Positions 44,698 to 53,032 of a stretch of 64,000 nt of DNA are shown piece after piece (within the stretch, counting starts at the first letter, position 1; every line of letters starts with the position of its first letter). A program made the position numbers and the translations under genes. The DNA is from Sulfuricurvum sp. (GTDB lineage Bacteria; Campylobacterota; Campylobacteria; Campylobacterales; Sulfurimonadaceae). The stretch is from assembly GCF_028710345.1 (NCBI RefSeq), contig NZ_JAQTUH010000002.1, positions 1 to 64,000 on the forward strand, given 5' to 3'. The notes beneath the pieces were generated by a model. That model was not told the origin of the DNA. It worked only from the letters and a program-made list of their open reading frames with translations, and made no database searches.

Positions 44698-45195
44698 ATG
44701 ATTAAAGTTTTTTTCAAAAAAATAGTAGCAAATATTATCCCTTTGAGTGTATTTACAGCTGTATTTGGAATTATTATTTTTCAGTTATTTGCTTTTTTTG
44801 AACCTTATTTGTATCCTTTACACTGGTTACAAGCTGATGCAAAAGTGGTAAATTCAAATGTAATAATAGGTGCTTATCCTAGGGAAAATGATTTGTATAC
44901 TCTAAAAAATAAGCTCCATGTTACAACGGTAATTTCATTGTTAAATACGTCTGGAATTCCACAAGAAAAAGATTTGTATGATGTAGAAAAAGAAAATTGT
45001 AAAGCATCTCATTTAAAGGTAATGAATTTTCCATTAGATTCTGATAAATTAAATACGGTAGGTGCACAAGAAGAGATCAATAAAATTATTGGATATGTAC
45101 AAACACATAAAGAGGAAAAAATTTATATCCATTGTTATTTGGGGAAGCATAGAGCAATAAAAGTTGGTCAAGCAATAGAAGCAACGTTGAAATAG
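44698..45195 (+). CDS. Membrane-anchored dual-specificity/tyrosine phosphatase-like protein
   Basis: A 165-residue protein with one TM helix at about 12-34 and a small Cys-phosphatase domain. The CX5R signature is IHCYLGKHRAIK, with Cys146 and Arg152. The conserved NVIIGAYPRENDLYTL near 54-69 and TVISLLNT near 77-84 are typical of atypical dual-specificity phosphatases. The start is the ATG at 44698 with AAAAAGGTG upstream; a TTG at 44674 would extend it. The gene is AT-rich and unlinked to a kinase; its place next to the polysaccharide locus may matter, since such phosphatases often control capsule export. Confidence 0.75.
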   Translation: MIKVFFKKIVANIIPLSVFTAVFGIIIFQLFAFFEPYLYPLHWLQADAKVVNSNVIIGAYPRENDLYTLKNKLHVTTVISLLNTSGIPQEKDLYDVEKENCKASHLKVMNFPLDSDKLNTVGAQEEINKIIGYVQTHKEEKIYIHCYLGKHRAIKVGQAIEATLK

Positions 45196-45210: not shown

Positions 45211-46614
45211 TTACGTTGTGATCTCTTTACGATTGATTTTTCCCCAACCTTTGCGCCAAAATTGGAATGTTGCAATAAAGCGTTCAATAGTCATAAGTTG
45301 ACGGTAGCCAAAAGATTCCATTAAGCCAAAGAGTGCGAGTTTAAGCAAATCTTTACTTGATGAATAACGTTTATGGATAAAATTATCCAAGAAAATCGAG
45401 CTTAAAGTGATATAGCTTCCCCATGTAAATGCAAATAAAAAGATATAGATACTGATTTCTCTATCGATTAAGCCAAAAATATAAAAGATAATAAAACTGA
45501 TGTATCCAAACATTTCTATGGTTGGTCCGAGTGCTTCGACAAAGAAAAAATAGGTCATTCCAAGCAACCCCACCTTTTTATACTTGGGATTGAGCATCAT
45601 AACTTTGTTATACCATAAAACATCAATCAATCCTCTGTGCCATCGGTTGCGTTGTTTCATAAGTGATGTCCAGTCATCCGGTACTTGTGTCCAGCATATA
45701 GGGTCGGGAACCGATAAAATTTTATAAGGAATATCATGTTCAATACAGTAACGATGTGTTCTAACAACTAAGTCCATATCTTCTCCTACGGTATGTCGGT
45801 ATCCTCCAATTTTTAAAACGATATCTTTACGAAAAATTCCAAAAGCACCTGAAATGATAAGTAAAGCATCAAAGAGATTCCATGCTGATCGTCCTGCTAA
45901 AAATCCTCGTGTGTATTCAACGGATTGAAAAAGTTCGATCCATTTGGAGGGTGTTTTGATAGAGGTGACTTGCCCGTTGACAACGGTGCAACCGTTTAGT
46001 GGACGAACAGTTCCTCCGACTGCTACTACTTCTTTATCGTGAGCAAAAATAGATCCTGCACGTAAAAGGCTATCATGTTCTAATAAAGAGTCAGCATCAA
46101 CAACACAAAATAAAGGGTAGTTACAAGCATTGATTCCACAATTGATTGCATCAAATTTTCCGCCGTTGTCTTTATCGATAAGCCATAAATTTGGGTTTAA
46201 TAAAGAGATATAAACTTGTCGGATTGGCTGATGATATATTTCAAGTTTTACCGGTTTGTCAACAGGGATAAAATGAAATGCATCGATTAAGCGACTTATT
46301 GTTTCATCTTTTGATCCATCGTTAACGATAATTATCTCGTACTCAGGATAGTGCAAAGCTAGCTGAGAACGGATACTACTAACTATAGTTGCTTGTTCGT
46401 TGTAAGCAGGAACAATTAGGGAAATTGGTCTGTATAAAGAAGTAGAAAGTGTTTGGTGAAGTCTGAATCGACTACCGTATACTTCTCGTTTGATAATATC
46501 GTCTAATGCAATAAAGGTAAAGGCGGAATAGGTACTATTAAGAATGAGAAAGTAGATAAAAATAATGATCTGGATAATAATAACGATAATGAATAGTAGA
46601 TCAAGCATGTGCAT
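45211..46614 (-). CDS. Processive GT2 glycosyltransferase (PgaC/BcsA-like polysaccharide synthase)
   Basis: A 467-residue membrane synthase. One N-terminal helix (about 4-24) is followed by the GT-A domain with SLIVPAYNE, EIIIVNDGSKDET, the UDP-binding Asp pair in LFCVVDADSLLEHD, the catalytic Asp in VGEDMDLVVRTHRY and the processive signature QRNRWHRG. Three to four C-terminal helices follow. The chain made could be poly-GlcNAc or another beta-linked polymer. It lacks a PilZ domain. It overlaps the HEAT-repeat gene by 14 bases and is the last gene of the locus. Confidence 0.87.
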   Translation of the reverse strand: MHMLDLLFIIVIIIQIIIFIYFLILNSTYSAFTFIALDDIIKREVYGSRFRLHQTLSTSLYRPISLIVPAYNEQATIVSSIRSQLALHYPEYEIIIVNDGSKDETISRLIDAFHFIPVDKPVKLEIYHQPIRQVYISLLNPNLWLIDKDNGGKFDAINCGINACNYPLFCVVDADSLLEHDSLLRAGSIFAHDKEVVAVGGTVRPLNGCTVVNGQVTSIKTPSKWIELFQSVEYTRGFLAGRSAWNLFDALLIISGAFGIFRKDIVLKIGGYRHTVGEDMDLVVRTHRYCIEHDIPYKILSVPDPICWTQVPDDWTSLMKQRNRWHRGLIDVLWYNKVMMLNPKYKKVGLLGMTYFFFVEALGPTIEMFGYISFIIFYIFGLIDREISIYIFLFAFTWGSYITLSSIFLDNFIHKRYSSSKDLLKLALFGLMESFGYRQLMTIERFIATFQFWRKGWGKINRKEITT

Positions 46615-48172
46615 CTTCGATTAAGTGAAGTGAAAAAATGGCACATTCTTTAGCATATAAATCTTGTCCGGAAGTAGCAATGGTATGTAGAATATCAATA
46701 CCACCATTTAGTTTGGAGAGAGAACGTGAAATATTGTATCGAACGTAAAATGAATCATCACTAAGATGGAGAGAAGAGAGATAGGTTAAATCGTCTCCTT
46801 TATAAGATGATAGACTTTTTGCCGCTACAATACGGAGAGTCTCATTATTGCTTTTTAAGGCATTAGCTAAAATGGTTTTATCAGTTATATGTCCAAAAGC
46901 TCCTAAAGCTCTTACAATCGTTATTTTGATACTATCATGAACCGTCATAAAATATAGTTCTTGTAATTCCGGAATAATCGATTCATACCCAATAATCGAG
47001 ATAGCTTCAATAAAAGCTTTGAGTGTTAAATAGTTCGATTGTAATTGCAACCAATAAAATATTGTAATAATCGCCATGTGATTATCGAGTTCGATAAATC
47101 TTTGTATTGTATTGCTTAATAGATATTCGGTAAATTTACCGGATGTATCGGTTTTGTTTAGAGCTGATAAGAACAGTTCAGATTCTTCAGGATTTAGAAT
47201 AAAACTAAGACCTGTCAATGCACTATTACGGATAGAGATATCGGCTGAAGGGTCATTTATAAGAGATAAAAAGAATGGATGATTCTGTTCATAATGACAC
47301 ATTGCAAGACGATCTACTGCATTAAGCCGTTGATTTGTATTTTGGTTTGATATGGCTATATTGAGATAATGATCCAATACACCGTATTGTATAAGTGCAT
47401 TATGTAATACAGATTTATACAAAGGGTCATTAAAGGTTTCAAGAAGCTCAATAACAATATCACTGAATGCTTCATATTCAAGCTCTTTGTGCAGTGTTGG
47501 GATAGTGTGCTCTGGTAACTCAGCAAAGAGTGAGAGTGTTAACTGATCTCGATAAAAATTTTTTAAATTTTCGATTTTTATTATTTTTGATTCAATTTTT
47601 ATTTTATGAATAAATAAGACAATAATTGTTATTAAAGAGAGAGCGACAAAAAAGAGGATGCCGATTATCAGGAAGTGGCGGAAAAAAAGTGTTATTGACT
47701 TTGAATGATTGATGATAGAGATGTATGTCGATTTAGGAGGTTCAATTGATGGGATTTTTTTATTTTCTGTGACAGGTGAGAATGTACTTACCGATTGAGG
47801 ATATTTTGGCATTTGTGTGATCTCTTCAGTTTGCATATGCCAAGTTGTCGTTGGCATAATGATGGCATGTTCAAAACCTATTGCAATATACTTTTTTAAA
47901 TCTCTATTGAGTTCATTAGGTGTTTTGCTTATACCGTATTGGGCAACAATATAAGATCCGATTTTGTAAAGTTTAATCTCTTTATGATTTGCTAAAGAAT
48001 GTTGTTGCAGTTCATTTTTGGAAGCTTCGATCGAGGTTGAAGAAAAAAGTCTGATTGTATAGACCCGTTCTTTTGAGATAGATGGTGATGTTTGTGCATA
48101 AAGTAGATAAGGCAATAGTAAGAAGTAGAATAGGGTAGTATTTTTTTTTATTTTATAGGAAAAAAATTGCAT
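46601..48172 (-). CDS. SPOR-like / transmembrane / HEAT-repeat protein of the polysaccharide locus
   Basis: A 523-residue protein with three parts. A signal peptide (about 1-26, ending YAQ) and a periplasmic SPOR-like domain at about 37-106 (YTIRLFSSTSIEASK, then IGSYIVAQYG) come first. One strong TM helix lies at about 165-188. A cytoplasmic array of HEAT-like helical repeats fills about 200-523 (NQRLNAVDRLA, ISIRNSALTGLSFI, SIKITIVRALGAFG, DDSFYVRYNISRSLSKL). It directly adjoins the YaiO-type barrel gene and overlaps the GT2 gene, so it likely bridges the periplasm to the synthase, perhaps filling the PgaD place. No catalytic motif is seen. Confidence 0.72.
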   Translation of the reverse strand: MQFFSYKIKKNTTLFYFLLLPYLLYAQTSPSISKERVYTIRLFSSTSIEASKNELQQHSLANHKEIKLYKIGSYIVAQYGISKTPNELNRDLKKYIAIGFEHAIIMPTTTWHMQTEEITQMPKYPQSVSTFSPVTENKKIPSIEPPKSTYISIINHSKSITLFFRHFLIIGILFFVALSLITIIVLFIHKIKIESKIIKIENLKNFYRDQLTLSLFAELPEHTIPTLHKELEYEAFSDIVIELLETFNDPLYKSVLHNALIQYGVLDHYLNIAISNQNTNQRLNAVDRLAMCHYEQNHPFFLSLINDPSADISIRNSALTGLSFILNPEESELFLSALNKTDTSGKFTEYLLSNTIQRFIELDNHMAIITIFYWLQLQSNYLTLKAFIEAISIIGYESIIPELQELYFMTVHDSIKITIVRALGAFGHITDKTILANALKSNNETLRIVAAKSLSSYKGDDLTYLSSLHLSDDSFYVRYNISRSLSKLNGGIDILHTIATSGQDLYAKECAIFSLHLIEDAHA

Positions 48173-49231
48173 TTACCAAAAATATTTGAGAAAAATTTCT
48201 CCACCACTTCTTCGATATAAATTGGTTCTTCTCCCATCTGTTAATGATGATCCTACTGACCATGAAGGGCTAAATCGCCAATCTCCACCTATTGTTTGAG
48301 AGAAAGTACGTGTATGTAAAAGCGGATCAACTCCGGTGACTTCATAACCATTTCCGAGGGTAAGGGCATAGTAAAGGTGAAGATGCTCTATCTGATCATA
48401 AGCTAATGTAGAAACGCTGGCATAAGAGTGGGAAGAAGGGACCCAATAAAGGTCTTCAGTTAATCGCATACCGTTATTCCATGGTAGCGGAAGTGCAATA
48501 GAAGGTTTGTATATATCGACTGAAGTATTTTGAAATATCATGTGACGGTATACTAATCCAAGTTCGGTATCGTGAAAGACTCCTTGATAAATTCCAGCAG
48601 AGTAATCTAACGTAGGTAAAAAATATGGATTTGAAGATTGATATACAGAAAGAAATCCCCATCTCTTAGAACTTTTATCGCCTAAATCGCTATATATTTC
48701 TAAGCCGTTTTGTCGATCTGTTAGGGCATAACGATGAATGGAAGCTGTGCTTCCTATCCATGTCATTCCTAATGCGTGTATTCCTGCTTGAAGGGTGAAG
48801 TCTTGTTCAGAATTATGATTTGCTCCATAACTATAAGCTTCACCTTTTAGTAAGACAAAGTTCTTTTTTGCAGCGAATTGATCATTTAATGAAGTATTTG
48901 AAACTTCATCCATTTTGACCAAGTAGGATCTATTGTGGGTCATATCATAAAGTGTTTGATAATAAAAAGTTGCCTTTGGATAGTTGTGGCTCCAATATTG
49001 CAACGATGCTAAAAGTTCAATGATTTCAACATTTTTTGGATAGTGTTTATCCATTGCTTCCAGCCGATTTATTGCTTGTGGAAAATCATTTTTAGAAATT
49101 AAAGCAGAAATATTTTTAATACTTTCATCATAGTTTTCGATAGAATAGTTAGAGGAACTATCGGTTAATGATTCTCCTCTGAGAGATAATGATAGGATGA
49201 ATAAGATAAAAAGGGTACTAAAATTATGCAT
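48173..49231 (-). CDS. TPR + YaiO-family outer-membrane beta-barrel protein
   Basis: A 352-residue exported protein. A signal peptide (about 1-18), a short TPR region at about 40-110 (DFPQAINRLEAMDKHYPKNVE, then LLASLQYWSHNYPKATFYYQTL) and a C-terminal barrel of alternating aromatic strands of about 125-352, ending in FLKYFW as outer-membrane barrels do. TPR plus barrel is the layout of PgaA, the poly-GlcNAc exporter, but this is smaller. It starts inside the end of the receiver gene (8-base overlap) and precedes the HEAT gene without a gap. Confidence 0.78.
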   Translation of the reverse strand: MHNFSTLFILFILSLSLRGESLTDSSSNYSIENYDESIKNISALISKNDFPQAINRLEAMDKHYPKNVEIIELLASLQYWSHNYPKATFYYQTLYDMTHNRSYLVKMDEVSNTSLNDQFAAKKNFVLLKGEAYSYGANHNSEQDFTLQAGIHALGMTWIGSTASIHRYALTDRQNGLEIYSDLGDKSSKRWGFLSVYQSSNPYFLPTLDYSAGIYQGVFHDTELGLVYRHMIFQNTSVDIYKPSIALPLPWNNGMRLTEDLYWVPSSHSYASVSTLAYDQIEHLHLYYALTLGNGYEVTGVDPLLHTRTFSQTIGGDWRFSPSWSVGSSLTDGRRTNLYRRSGGEIFLKYFW

Positions 49232-49616
49232 GTAAACGTTTTGACTCTTTTAAGGTATTGTCAATGACTGATAATAGTTTTGCAGGGTTAACAGGTTTGG
49301 TAAGATAATCATAGACATTTCTTAGCTCATGTCGCTCTTTGTTATGGGCTTGTGAAAGTGCAGAAAGGATCACAATGGGAATGTTGATTAATTCAGGGTC
49401 GTTGTGTGCAGCATAAGCAACATCAAATCCCGTCATTTTAGGCATATTAAGATCCAATAAGGTTAAATCAGGATGGAACTCTTTCATTTTTGCAAGCCCC
49501 TCTTCTCCGTCGAAGGCAGTGAGTATTTGATACCCGTTACGTGATAAATAGTTGACGAGAAAAGAGATAATTGTTTTGTTGTCATCAACGCATAATATTA
49601 AAGGCTGTGTTTGCAT
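49224..49616 (-). CDS. Single-domain response regulator of the polysaccharide locus
   Basis: A 130-residue CheY-like receiver. The acidic pair is in ILCVDDNKTII (near 8-18), the phospho-acceptor Asp in LTLLDLNMPKMTGFD near residue 55, the switch Ser in VILSALSQ and the Lys in YLTKPVNP. There is no output domain. It overlaps the barrel gene, so it likely controls assembly or activity of this exopolysaccharide system by protein contact. The partner kinase is not in the window. Confidence 0.88.
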   Translation of the reverse strand: MQTQPLILCVDDNKTIISFLVNYLSRNGYQILTAFDGEEGLAKMKEFHPDLTLLDLNMPKMTGFDVAYAAHNDPELINIPIVILSALSQAHNKERHELRNVYDYLTKPVNPAKLLSVIDNTLKESKRLHA

Positions 49617-49701
49617 AGGTAGTAAAACTTTAAGTTATAAAATAATTATTGACATTATACTCTATTGTAGGTTAGCCAATAATTAACTAATTATTATATG
49701 A

Positions 49702-50544
49702 CTAGATATCATCAAGACTGTGAAATACCCATCCTTTGAAGGAGGTGTGGTGAATACTCATCATTAGAACCTCTTCTAATCTATCCTTATGATTAAAAAA
49801 TGATAGCTGTTGAGCATTTGATTCTTTGGATGGGGAGAGATCAACTGCTAGAAAGATCGATTTTTTAGAGGTATCGGCATAGTTTAGTTCGTGTTCAACT
49901 GTTGCCAATAAATCATTGGGATTAGTACGATAGGACATAATAACGGTTTCATCAGCAATGTCAATTACTTGATCGCTCAGTGGACGATGGTTGATACTGA
50001 TTGAATCAAGCCAAAAAGGGATAGAAATAGAGAGTTTTAACCCTTTTTTGTGTAATTCTTCAGAAACTGCTTTCAGTTTTAAGAGATAACGGTGCCATAA
50101 ATTCTCTTGGCTAGCAGGAGTATAGTCAGGTCGGGTATAGATCTCAATATCAAGATGAAGACCTTGGATAGCTATATGTTCTTTGAGTGCTTGATCAAGA
50201 ATTGATAAATCGTATTGGATAGATGAGGGATCGTCAATGGACGCTGTATTACCATCTAAAAGCCAAAAGGAATAGTGATTAAGTTGTCGAGCGTCTTGAC
50301 GAAAAGATTCGTCTATCTCTGTATTATGTCGTTGTAGATATACGGTACTGATGGAATAGAGTGACGTTTTGGAAAGATTATCCAAACGGTTCCATGCCCA
50401 TACTCCATTGGTTGTTTCTTTTAAAGGAATAGTAGGTTTAGAACATCCATAAAATAAAAGTAATGTGAAGAGTATTTGGATGAGAGTATGTAACTTAAGG
50501 AACAATGTCAAATACCCATTGATTTTTTCCGCTATGTAAGTCAC
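49702..50544 (-). CDS. GH18-like TIM-barrel lipoprotein
   Basis: A 280-residue protein with a hydrophobic leader and a lipobox LLFYGC (Cys34 on the GTG start), so it is probably lipid-anchored. The mature part looks like a small glycosidase barrel: VWAWN near the start, IQGLHLDIEIYTRP near 127-139, which resembles the GH18 strand DxxDxDxE with D132 and E134 kept, LSISIPFWLDS, and ETVIMSYRTNPND near 194-206, matching the GH18 MxYD strand. The start overlaps the deacetylase gene by 50 bases; in-frame TTG codons nearer the leader are alternatives. It is a putative polymer hydrolase. Confidence 0.6.
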   Translation of the reverse strand: MTYIAEKINGYLTLFLKLHTLIQILFTLLLFYGCSKPTIPLKETTNGVWAWNRLDNLSKTSLYSISTVYLQRHNTEIDESFRQDARQLNHYSFWLLDGNTASIDDPSSIQYDLSILDQALKEHIAIQGLHLDIEIYTRPDYTPASQENLWHRYLLKLKAVSEELHKKGLKLSISIPFWLDSISINHRPLSDQVIDIADETVIMSYRTNPNDLLATVEHELNYADTSKKSIFLAVDLSPSKESNAQQLSFFNHKDRLEEVLMMSIHHTSFKGWVFHSLDDI

Positions 50545-52354
50545 CGATAATTTTTTGATTCTGAACTTGTACGTCTGATGTAATAGCGCGTAAATGGACT
50601 TTGCTGTTAACGGTAAATGTTATCCCTTTAAAATCAGCAGGAGCATTAGTGGTGATAATAAGGTGGTTGCCTTGATATTGATAATTCCAATTAAGCGTAT
50701 CTCTAAAATGCCAAAAATCTCCTGCTTGTGACATAGTTGTGCGCCAAACATCATTTGGTAGAGCATGAAGAAATTTTTCTTCAAACGATAAATCTAGGTT
50801 TTTAAGTTTCCACCATGTGCAATCAGGGTGTATTAATAACACAAAAACGGCACCATTGTTATGAAGTTTAGTAAATAGTTGTATTGCTTTATTAAGACGA
50901 AAAATGAGGGGAGGCAACATTTCATCTTCATAACTCAATGGAAATTCAAATATTTTGCTTTCTAGATTTAGGGTATATTTATCATAAGGATAACGATAAG
51001 GAAAATAAGAGAGAACATCTTCAGCCGAAAAGTTAGAACCTTGTTGATATTCCAGCTGCTCCATAATAGTGGGTAACTCTTTGTGGTATAAAAGTTCACC
51101 GCTTCTAAAGGATGCGACCTTTCCCCCCTTCATCCCATCTATAAGCTCTTTGCTCACTTTTAATTCACCGCAAAGAGTTGGATTGTTGTGATCTTCAGTA
51201 TCGTTGAAACTGATTGGCTGATATTCAGGATAAGATTCTTTACATGTACCTATAGGGAGCTTGTTGAAATTTCGTGTGTGAATTACAGTATGGGAACCTA
51301 TTTCAAATCCATTCTTTATCAACCAAGGGAAAATATGTGTTGTTTTAGGGGTAAAAAAAGCGATATCTTTATCATCAGTGAGATATTTTGTTTGGATAAA
51401 AAAAGTGCTTGGGGTATGTTCACGGATTTCAGTTTCGGCAAACTTTTTCACCCCCTCTTCAATGGAATATCGGTAATCAATGTCATGTGTAATCAAAAGT
51501 GTTGATTGGTATCCATGTGGGGCAGTATGGAGGGTTACTCCTATCGGAAATGTTGATTCATACATCCCTTTTACAAACAAAGAAAGATAGTCAGAAAGCG
51601 GTTCAAAATCGTTACAATAGTGATGATTGGCATTGTAATCTCTCCCAACTAAATTTCGAAGTCGTAAATCGTAGGAAGATATTCCAATTAAGGTAATATC
51701 CCCTTTTTTATACGTATAACGAATGGCGGCGGCATTGCCATCTTCATAACGTGCAAGTGTAATATCATTTGGGTGGGTTGTAATGGAAGTTGTATAAGGT
51801 GCTTTATCTTCCATAGTAGATAAGGTGTAGTTCTGCTCATTGGGATCATCGAAATATCGGTGACATGTATCGGGCTGAAGAGAAAAACTTTTGTGTATGT
51901 GTCCAGTGTTAAGAGATCGTGATTGCAAAATTGGGGCAAGTTTTGATTCAAGATCATGGTTGGCACCGACGATAATTAAACGACCACCTTTGTCTAAAAA
52001 ATCTTCTAACATTTTCACTCGTTCAGAAGTAAACCAGTTTGGAAGAAAAGATCCTGCATCTAAATAGGCTATTTTTCCGGAAAAAAAAGCTAGATTTTCA
52101 GAGAAAACGAATGGTACACCGGAGATTCGTAATATTCTACTAATCATTGATGAAGACTCTGGATTACATAATAATGCGATTGATGTTTCCGTTGTTGCTA
52201 AATCTTCTGAGATGCTTGGTGTAGTTAACTGCGATAAAGTGATGGGTATTGAAGTCAGAGTGTCAATTTTTGCGATAGGTTTTGGATTAAAAAAAGAGTA
52301 AAGCATCATTAATAGTACAATGATTGGGAGTAAAATAATTAAAAAAATGCGCAT
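50495..52354 (-). CDS. Membrane-anchored polysaccharide deacetylase-family protein
   Basis: A 619-residue protein with an N-terminal TM anchor (about 5-22). An unassigned Rossmann-like segment at about 58-150 follows (ETSIALLCNPES, GRLIIVGANHDLES), recalling amidotransferase-type folds. The NodB-type deacetylase domain of about 280-460 has metal Asp in LLITHDIDYRYS (D291 and D293) and the HX3H motif GSHTVIHTRNF (H355, H359). A beta-rich tail of about 530-619 ends the protein. The ATG at 52354 has GGAGA six bases upstream; a TTG at 52369 is less likely. It is the first gene of the locus, overlapping the GH18-like gene. Confidence 0.75.
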   Translation of the reverse strand: MRIFLIILLPIIVLLMMLYSFFNPKPIAKIDTLTSIPITLSQLTTPSISEDLATTETSIALLCNPESSSMISRILRISGVPFVFSENLAFFSGKIAYLDAGSFLPNWFTSERVKMLEDFLDKGGRLIIVGANHDLESKLAPILQSRSLNTGHIHKSFSLQPDTCHRYFDDPNEQNYTLSTMEDKAPYTTSITTHPNDITLARYEDGNAAAIRYTYKKGDITLIGISSYDLRLRNLVGRDYNANHHYCNDFEPLSDYLSLFVKGMYESTFPIGVTLHTAPHGYQSTLLITHDIDYRYSIEEGVKKFAETEIREHTPSTFFIQTKYLTDDKDIAFFTPKTTHIFPWLIKNGFEIGSHTVIHTRNFNKLPIGTCKESYPEYQPISFNDTEDHNNPTLCGELKVSKELIDGMKGGKVASFRSGELLYHKELPTIMEQLEYQQGSNFSAEDVLSYFPYRYPYDKYTLNLESKIFEFPLSYEDEMLPPLIFRLNKAIQLFTKLHNNGAVFVLLIHPDCTWWKLKNLDLSFEEKFLHALPNDVWRTTMSQAGDFWHFRDTLNWNYQYQGNHLIITTNAPADFKGITFTVNSKVHLRAITSDVQVQNQKIIGDLHSGKNQWVFDIVP

Positions 52355-52435
52355 TCTTTCTCCGAACAATTAATGAAAAAAGTTTTCTTGCGTGTATTAT
52401 CGACAATAAGGACTTAATATTTAGCTCAAAATCAC

Positions 52436-52729
52436 TTAAGAGACCCGTACTCGCCCCGTCGTGATTTTATGGATGACATGGGTGATATAGGTTTGATAAG
52501 GGATTCCCTCATTGAGTGCCATCGCCTTGAGTTTCGTGATATCGTCTTCGAATAGACGGATACTGATTGCTTTACGCTTGGAACGTTGTTTAATCGTCTC
52601 AGAAGCTGCGATTTTTAGCGATTTTTTGAGTTGCTCTAATTCATCGATAGGTAGTGAAATATACTCACCATTTTCCACCGCGTTGACGATGGCTAGCTCT
52701 TCATCCGTGTAGAGTGTTTTGGTACGCAT
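52436..52729 (-). CDS. RHH-type antitoxin (CopG/BrnA-like)
   Basis: A 97-residue protein. The first half is an acidic, helical toxin-binding region (YTDEELAIVNAVENGEYISL); the second half is a ribbon-helix-helix DNA-binding fold with the basic strand KRKAISIRLFEDD and the helix pair GIPYQTYITHVIHKITTG. It begins 3 bases after the toxin stop, in the toxin-first order. It likely neutralises the toxin and represses the operon via the direct repeats near 53033-53051. Confidence 0.82.
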   Translation of the reverse strand: MRTKTLYTDEELAIVNAVENGEYISLPIDELEQLKKSLKIAASETIKQRSKRKAISIRLFEDDITKLKAMALNEGIPYQTYITHVIHKITTGRVRVS

Positions 52730-52732
52730 CGG

Positions 52733-52999
52733 TTACTCCTTAAAGTATTTTTTGGTTTCTTTTCGGCTGGGATAGATCGTTTTGAGAAAAAACGTATCTC
52801 CCTCTTTGACAAACGGAACGATATAGGCGTAATTCATAATTTCGACAATTAAACAGTATTGACCCTGATGGTTAGCACTTGGGTTTTTGACGATGTCGAG
52901 AAGTTTGTTGTCTTGGATGCTGGTGACGACATCCTCGAAACAGACATTTCGGCTCTCTTTTAGGAGGGTGTTTTTTTCATCGTTCCAATCAAAAACCAT
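52733..52999 (-). CDS. BrnT-like toxin
   Basis: An 88-residue protein: VFDWNDEKNTLL at the N-terminus, NVCFEDVVTSIQ next, the IVKNPSANHQGQYCLIVEIMNYAYIVPFV sheet and the C-terminal TFFLKTIYPSRKETKKYF. It resembles the BrnT/RelE-like small toxins but of another subgroup than the pair at 2076. The ATG at 52999 sits behind GGTGGGGGA; a GTG at 53011 is in frame upstream. It pairs with the RHH antitoxin downstream. Confidence 0.78.
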   Translation of the reverse strand: MVFDWNDEKNTLLKESRNVCFEDVVTSIQDNKLLDIVKNPSANHQGQYCLIVEIMNYAYIVPFVKEGDTFFLKTIYPSRKETKKYFKE

Positions 53000-53032
53000 T
53001 TGATCCCCCACCTGCTAAAGATATTGTTTTAT

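Follow-up and report, generated by a model that had tools for sequence, protein, structure and literature searches.

Among synthase-dependent exopolysaccharide systems, those studied best (cellulose, PNAG, Pel, alginate, and NGR) are gated post-translationally by c-di-GMP, and in known systems this control of the synthase is carried by PilZ, PgaD, or MshEN domains. The Sulfuricurvum locus that we describe here shares with pgaABCD a processive GT2, an exporter of the TPR-plus-barrel type, and periplasmic deacetylase and hydrolase functions. It differs, however, in having no PgaD and no PilZ or other c-di-GMP part that we could find, in a deacetylase that is PelA-like, in a GH18-like hydrolase encoded by a separate gene, in a YaiO-type barrel protein far smaller than PgaA, and in a core that includes a receiver and a HEAT-repeat protein. 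With Pel it has in common a deacetylase containing mixed alpha/beta, carbohydrate esterase, and beta-rich domains, but this deacetylase lacks the GH166 domain of PelA and keeps an MT3-type arginine that PelA lacks, while the locus synthase is a GT2 rather than a GT4 and is not accompanied by PelD, PelE, or PelG. The exporter belongs to the barrel family of Escherichia coli YaiO (TIGR04390), whose neighborhood in that organism (yaiP, yaiS) presumably holds neither a HEAT protein nor a receiver. A small GT2 synthase paired with a TPR/beta-barrel exporter is also found in E. coli NfrA/NfrB, the N4 glycan receptor; NfrB, in contrast, has its own MshEN domain and is gated by c-di-GMP (PMC8669472), and the system is not known to include a HEAT protein, receiver, or deacetylase. 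A survey of synthase-dependent operons makes no mention of HEAT, YaiO, or response regulators (PMC7112194). Two further leads, Rubrivivax EmbRS (PMC3684757) and the lipocone paper (PMC12419801), were set aside, as neither describes this gene set. We found no published description in open-access full texts, in keeping with the proposal of an earlier note on this DNA that the locus is a candidate undescribed system.

The window, by which we mean the whole 64,000-nucleotide stretch that was analyzed, comes from a host genome assembly of 3.01 Mb in 46 contigs. All six minus-strand open reading frames that the earlier note placed between 45211 and 52354 are present (Table 1), as are its 85-base gap before the receiver gene (49617 to 49701) and its mostly overlapping or abutting neighbors: 14 nucleotides are shared by GT2 and HEAT, none separate HEAT from the barrel, 8 are shared by barrel and receiver, and the hydrolase reading frame overlaps the end of the deacetylase gene. 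Its reading of an exopolysaccharide locus for chain making, trimming, and export is supported, as a synthase-dependent system. Its genes are indeed conserved as a set, but the unit is not one of six genes: the core comprises four (REC-YaiO-HEAT-GT2), to which the deacetylase and hydrolase are additions, and a seventh, a DSP gene, had been overlooked. The seven genes very probably serve to build, trim, and export a sugar polymer involved in adhesion or biofilm formation.

Table 1. Features of the locus, in window coordinates
Feature	Coordinates	Strand	Length (aa)	Evidence
Membrane-anchored DSP/PTP-like phosphatase	44698..45195	+		PF03162 1.2e-7; HCYLGKHR motif intact
Processive GT2 synthase	45211..46614	-	467	Glyco_tranf_2_3 2e-21 (Pfam)
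Membrane HEAT-repeat protein	46601..48172	-	523	HEAT_2 2e-14
Putative outer-membrane exporter, short TPR + YaiO-type beta barrel	48173..49231	-	352	TIGR04390, PF19413
Single-domain response-regulator receiver	49224..49616	-	130	Response_reg PF00072 1.4e-22
GH18-fold hydrolase, probable lipoprotein	49702..50544	-		AF2 model, structure match, alignment of 23
PelA-like polysaccharide deacetylase	50495..52354	-		AF2 model, structure matches, alignment of 43

The locus forms an AT-rich island, with a GC content of ~34 to 36% against 40 to 44% in most of the flanks. Two further Sulfuricurvum genomes carry the full gene set in identical order, with per-protein identities to the window locus of 75 to 96% (L031/L045) and 51 to 86% (L032/L047); a close GT2 (at least 86% identical) occurs in only three of the same-genus genomes searched. 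Because the flanking genes of L032 differ and its DSP gene sits at the opposite end of the locus, the seven genes appear to travel as a unit. Promoter-like sites are no more frequent than in shuffled sequence. At the margin of the low-GC island, just upstream of the deacetylase gene, there is a toxin-antitoxin pair of the BrnT-like and CopG/BrnA-like types (52436 to 53011, minus strand).

The conservation of these genes as a set is far beyond chance, and the neighborhood comparison across Campylobacterota and other phyla that the earlier note called for finds the set co-conserved far past the Campylobacterota. The core order REC-YaiO-HEAT-GT2 recurs in at least seven phyla, and its carriers include Methylobacterium, Stutzerimonas, Massilia, and rhizobial plasmids. 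Among plasmids, neither the window HEAT protein nor the window deacetylase gave a match when used as query; a HEAT protein from Methylobacterium led to Mesorhizobium and Devosia. Among 80 deacetylase loci, the core, whole or mostly, adjoins the deacetylase in Acidobacteriota, Bacteroidota, Campylobacterota, and several members of the alpha-, beta-, and gammaproteobacteria, and many other loci have the deacetylase without the core alongside. In Nitrospira, the deacetylase of one locus (L080) is flanked by HEAT and REC genes. When 35 genomes chosen for a deacetylase lying away from the core were searched with the GT2 alignment, 34 proved to encode the core GT2 elsewhere (E < 1e-170), and the HEAT gene was directly upstream of it in 29 of the 30 loci retrieved, Gemmatimonadota and Verrucomicrobiota included. 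The core GT2 occurs in 9 of 248 background genomes; the comparison with 34 of 35 (Fisher p 2e-34) is only indicative because the background is one phylum and the test set spans several. Pooled adjacencies, in which a few contigs are counted twice, number 57 for HEAT to GT2, 47 for YaiO to HEAT, and 33 for REC to YaiO. Over 20 loci, the distance matrices for the four families are correlated (r 0.83 to 0.93), an agreement that shared species history may partly explain. Only one of the nine background genomes with the GT2 has the deacetylase and two have a relative of the hydrolase, so the core can do without this finishing module; since many genomes hold the core without either enzyme, the polymer need not be deacetylated there, or other enzymes act. 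A second, related type of locus, found within the same genus and family (L039 to L042), runs HEAT, GT2 (36 to 39% identical), a large TPR protein, and a TPR/YaiO-like barrel; in L039 a Polysacc_deac_1 protein of a different deacetylase family lies between the last two. Elsewhere (L178:8528-15000), a sulfatase gene and then a relative of the hydrolase come after the core GT2 and barrel, which suggests a sulfate-carrying polymer in that lineage.

How the core might be controlled is indicated by its receiver and HEAT protein. The window receiver conserves the phospho-acceptor D55 and K107, and the aspartate is kept in 31 of 33 core-linked receivers, so that from its residues the receiver looks active. 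In relatives, hybrid kinases whose sensors are of the PAS, Cache, or MASE1 type adjoin the core, and one of these kinases ends in Hpt. On the Mesorhizobium and Devosia plasmids, genes for kinase or PAS proteins and receivers precede the core, and an Hpt gene in convergent orientation lies directly downstream of the GT2; in another locus (L189) a REC-Hpt-REC protein precedes the barrel. A Pfam scan, which leaves room for other c-di-GMP sites, found no PilZ match in the GT2 or the other locus proteins. The receiver and the missing PilZ of the earlier note are thus both confirmed, and its reading of control is probably right: control appears to be phosphorelay-based, replacing the usual c-di-GMP signal.

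The window HEAT protein has a signal peptide, a small N-domain, a single TM helix (residues 168 to 186), and HEAT repeats that are expected to face the cytoplasm; if so placed, the receiver, the HEAT protein, and the active site of the GT2 would share a compartment. Across the family, the protein consists only of a TM helix at the N terminus plus HEAT repeats. The TM helix and HEAT repeats of the earlier reading are borne out, and its SPOR-like domain is unconfirmed: Pfam gives no SPOR hit for the window protein, and among relatives of the N-domain only one matches PF05036, below the cut-off (E 0.085). That N-domain occurs only in the Sulfuricurvum copies and perhaps in L043, and related domains are found in TPR proteins of another genus. 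L043 is itself a REC-HEAT-GT2-YaiO locus in a same-genus bin with 5% contamination, and its proteins look Bacteroidota-like, so it may lie on a contaminant contig.

We infer that the receiver acts via the HEAT protein on the synthase. The receiver could instead serve a separate output (transcription, motility, or a distant kinase sink, for example), with the HEAT protein as a scaffold or a bridge to the barrel only. No kinase gene lies within the window locus, where the receiver stands alone, and the periplasmic extension of the window HEAT protein could reach the barrel. The HEAT proteins of most relatives, however, lack a periplasmic part, so that bridging is not general and the proposed SPOR bridge role is weak, and REC is the first core gene in most lineages, directly before the barrel. 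We regard a separate output as unlikely and consider it probable that this is a synthase-dependent system making a partly deacetylated N-acetylhexosamine polymer, with a receiver-HEAT switch on the GT2.

The chemistry of the system bears on a second alternative, namely that the locus is a diverged pga (PNAG) system whose PgaB is encoded by two genes and whose chemistry and c-di-GMP logic are otherwise those already known. The window GT2 has the D, DxD, xED, and QxxRW motifs (as VNDGS, DAD, GED, and QRNRW) and the TM helices of a processive polysaccharide synthase, with three hydrophobic segments detected, and these motifs are intact among full-length core GT2s. Its nearest named NCBIfam family is PgaC_IcaA (TIGR03937), and the barrel protein has a weak match to PgaA (TIGR03939), in its TPR part; a deacetylase and a TIM-barrel hydrolase are, moreover, both present. 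These scores nonetheless fall far below the equivalog cut-offs (114.3 bits versus 422.3 for PgaC and 15 versus 366.65 for PgaA), and the core GT2s form a sharply bounded subfamily (E < 1e-170, versus one at 1e-85, in 249 genomes). The barrel protein instead exceeds the cut-off for TIGR04390 (36.7 bits versus 32), which supports the call of a TPR-plus-barrel gene, and also matches PF19413 (E 0.0018). PgaD is absent, and the receiver and HEAT genes are part of the core. The earlier note had seen here a PgaB function split in two, and the deacetylase and hydrolase are in fact separate genes; their folds, however, are PelA-like and GH18, not those of the PgaB-type deacetylase-GH153 fusion, and rule out a split PgaB. 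We regard this second alternative as unlikely.

The deacetylase starts at the ATG at 52354 (the mechanical open reading frame runs from a TTG at 52369, from which residues are numbered) and consists of a membrane anchor, a mixed alpha/beta domain, a CE4-type domain, and a beta-rich C terminus. Its Polysacc_deac_1 match (E 5e-4, 20.5 bits) is below the gathering cut-off of 23.1. The AF2 model has a mean pLDDT of 89.9; its best local structure matches are CE4-type (3qbu, Z 23.4, rmsd 2.2, 231 residues), and residues 58 to 624 align with residues 279 to 847 of PelA (9cgy, Z 18.4, 434 residues, rmsd 6.1). Agd3/CE18 is not among the 50 structure matches listed, which excludes nothing. PelA is composed of hydrolase, mixed alpha/beta, deacetylase, and beta-rich domains (PMC12022489); as modeled, the locus enzyme is built like the last three of these, with the hydrolase domain absent. 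The metal triad (D-H-H), base aspartate, MT3 arginine, and catalytic histidine of CE4/NodB enzymes are in place, with D296, D298, H360, and H364 in at least 90% of the 43 aligned relatives and R422 and H514 invariant, so that the earlier call of NodB motifs holds.

The hydrolase likely starts at a TTG just before the deacetylase stop, a start that would yield a lipoprotein-like signal. Its sequence gives no Pfam GH18 match, and its one sequence relative of known structure, 10yv, is labeled putative GH97. Its AF2 model (pLDDT 89.9) is a GH18-type TIM barrel that matches Cwp19 (5oq3, Z 19.1, rmsd 3.1, 223 aligned residues), and D132, E134, W178, and Y205, among them the DxE pair and tyrosine of GH18-like enzymes, are invariant across 23 relatives. 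The GH18-like lipoprotein of the earlier reading is borne out in its fold and probable in its anchoring. GH18 enzymes rely on substrate assistance by the 2-acetamido group, which points to an N-acetylhexosamine polymer; both this sugar and its linkage we infer. A second relative of the hydrolase is encoded elsewhere in the host genome (G000:C8:47218-47724). A Pel-like alpha-1,4-GalNAc/GalN polymer, made with a GT2 in place of PelF, is very improbable: the deacetylase does match the PelA structure over its whole length, but the locus open reading frames that we scanned include no GT4 PelF, PelD, PelE, or PelG, a GH18 fold replaces the GH166 domain, and GT2 synthases are inverting whereas PelF-type GT4 enzymes are retaining.

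The DSP gene belongs to the Campylobacterota version of the system. It lies on the opposite strand, convergent with the GT2 gene and 15 bases past its stop, and is linked to the locus in relatives L031 to L038 and L044 to L050. In other Campylobacterota (L033, L044, L046, and L035) the GT2 gene overlaps the DSP gene, and, where present, those for the deacetylase, the hydrolase, and a receiver form a convergent group. The window protein and its two Sulfuricurvum relatives retain an intact Cys-X5-Arg motif, but the cysteine is replaced in all other relatives; a Cys-less DSP-like protein, a pseudophosphatase, stays beside the GT2 in L033, L035, L036, L038, L044, and L046. A conserved noncatalytic role, maybe as a synthase partner, is likelier than one in signaling. 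The DSP protein is unlikely to be the phosphatase of the receiver, as its domain is predicted to be periplasmic and its catalytic cysteine is gone in other genera.

The gene set, the folds, the active-site residues, and the co-conservation are established computationally. In the mechanism that we propose on top of them, the GT2 would polymerize a nucleotide-sugar, most likely an N-acetylhexosamine, and move the growing chain through the inner membrane. In the periplasm, acetyl groups would be removed from it by the anchored PelA-like deacetylase. Chains would be trimmed or cleared by the GH18-fold lipoprotein through substrate-assisted cleavage, which requires an N-acetyl group, and export would fall to the TPR-YaiO barrel. 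The HEAT protein, whose gene almost always adjoins that of the synthase, would be the adaptor by which the phosphorylated receiver turns the synthase on or off, and the DSP-like protein would assist the synthase in Campylobacterota, probably as a binding or structural partner. This is a real, widespread, and apparently undescribed form of synthase-dependent exopolysaccharide system. Whether it represents a distinct, widespread class of exopolysaccharide machine, in which a phosphorylated receiver, not c-di-GMP, gates the GT2 via a membrane HEAT adaptor and the PelA-like deacetylase and GH18-fold hydrolase are an exchangeable finishing module, is in our estimation evenly balanced. PelA-like and GH18-like finishing enzymes can, on this evidence, combine with a GT2 synthase. 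If the proposal is true, there would be a second, testable way to switch a polysaccharide synthase, and its matrix polymer may be common to many environmental bacteria.
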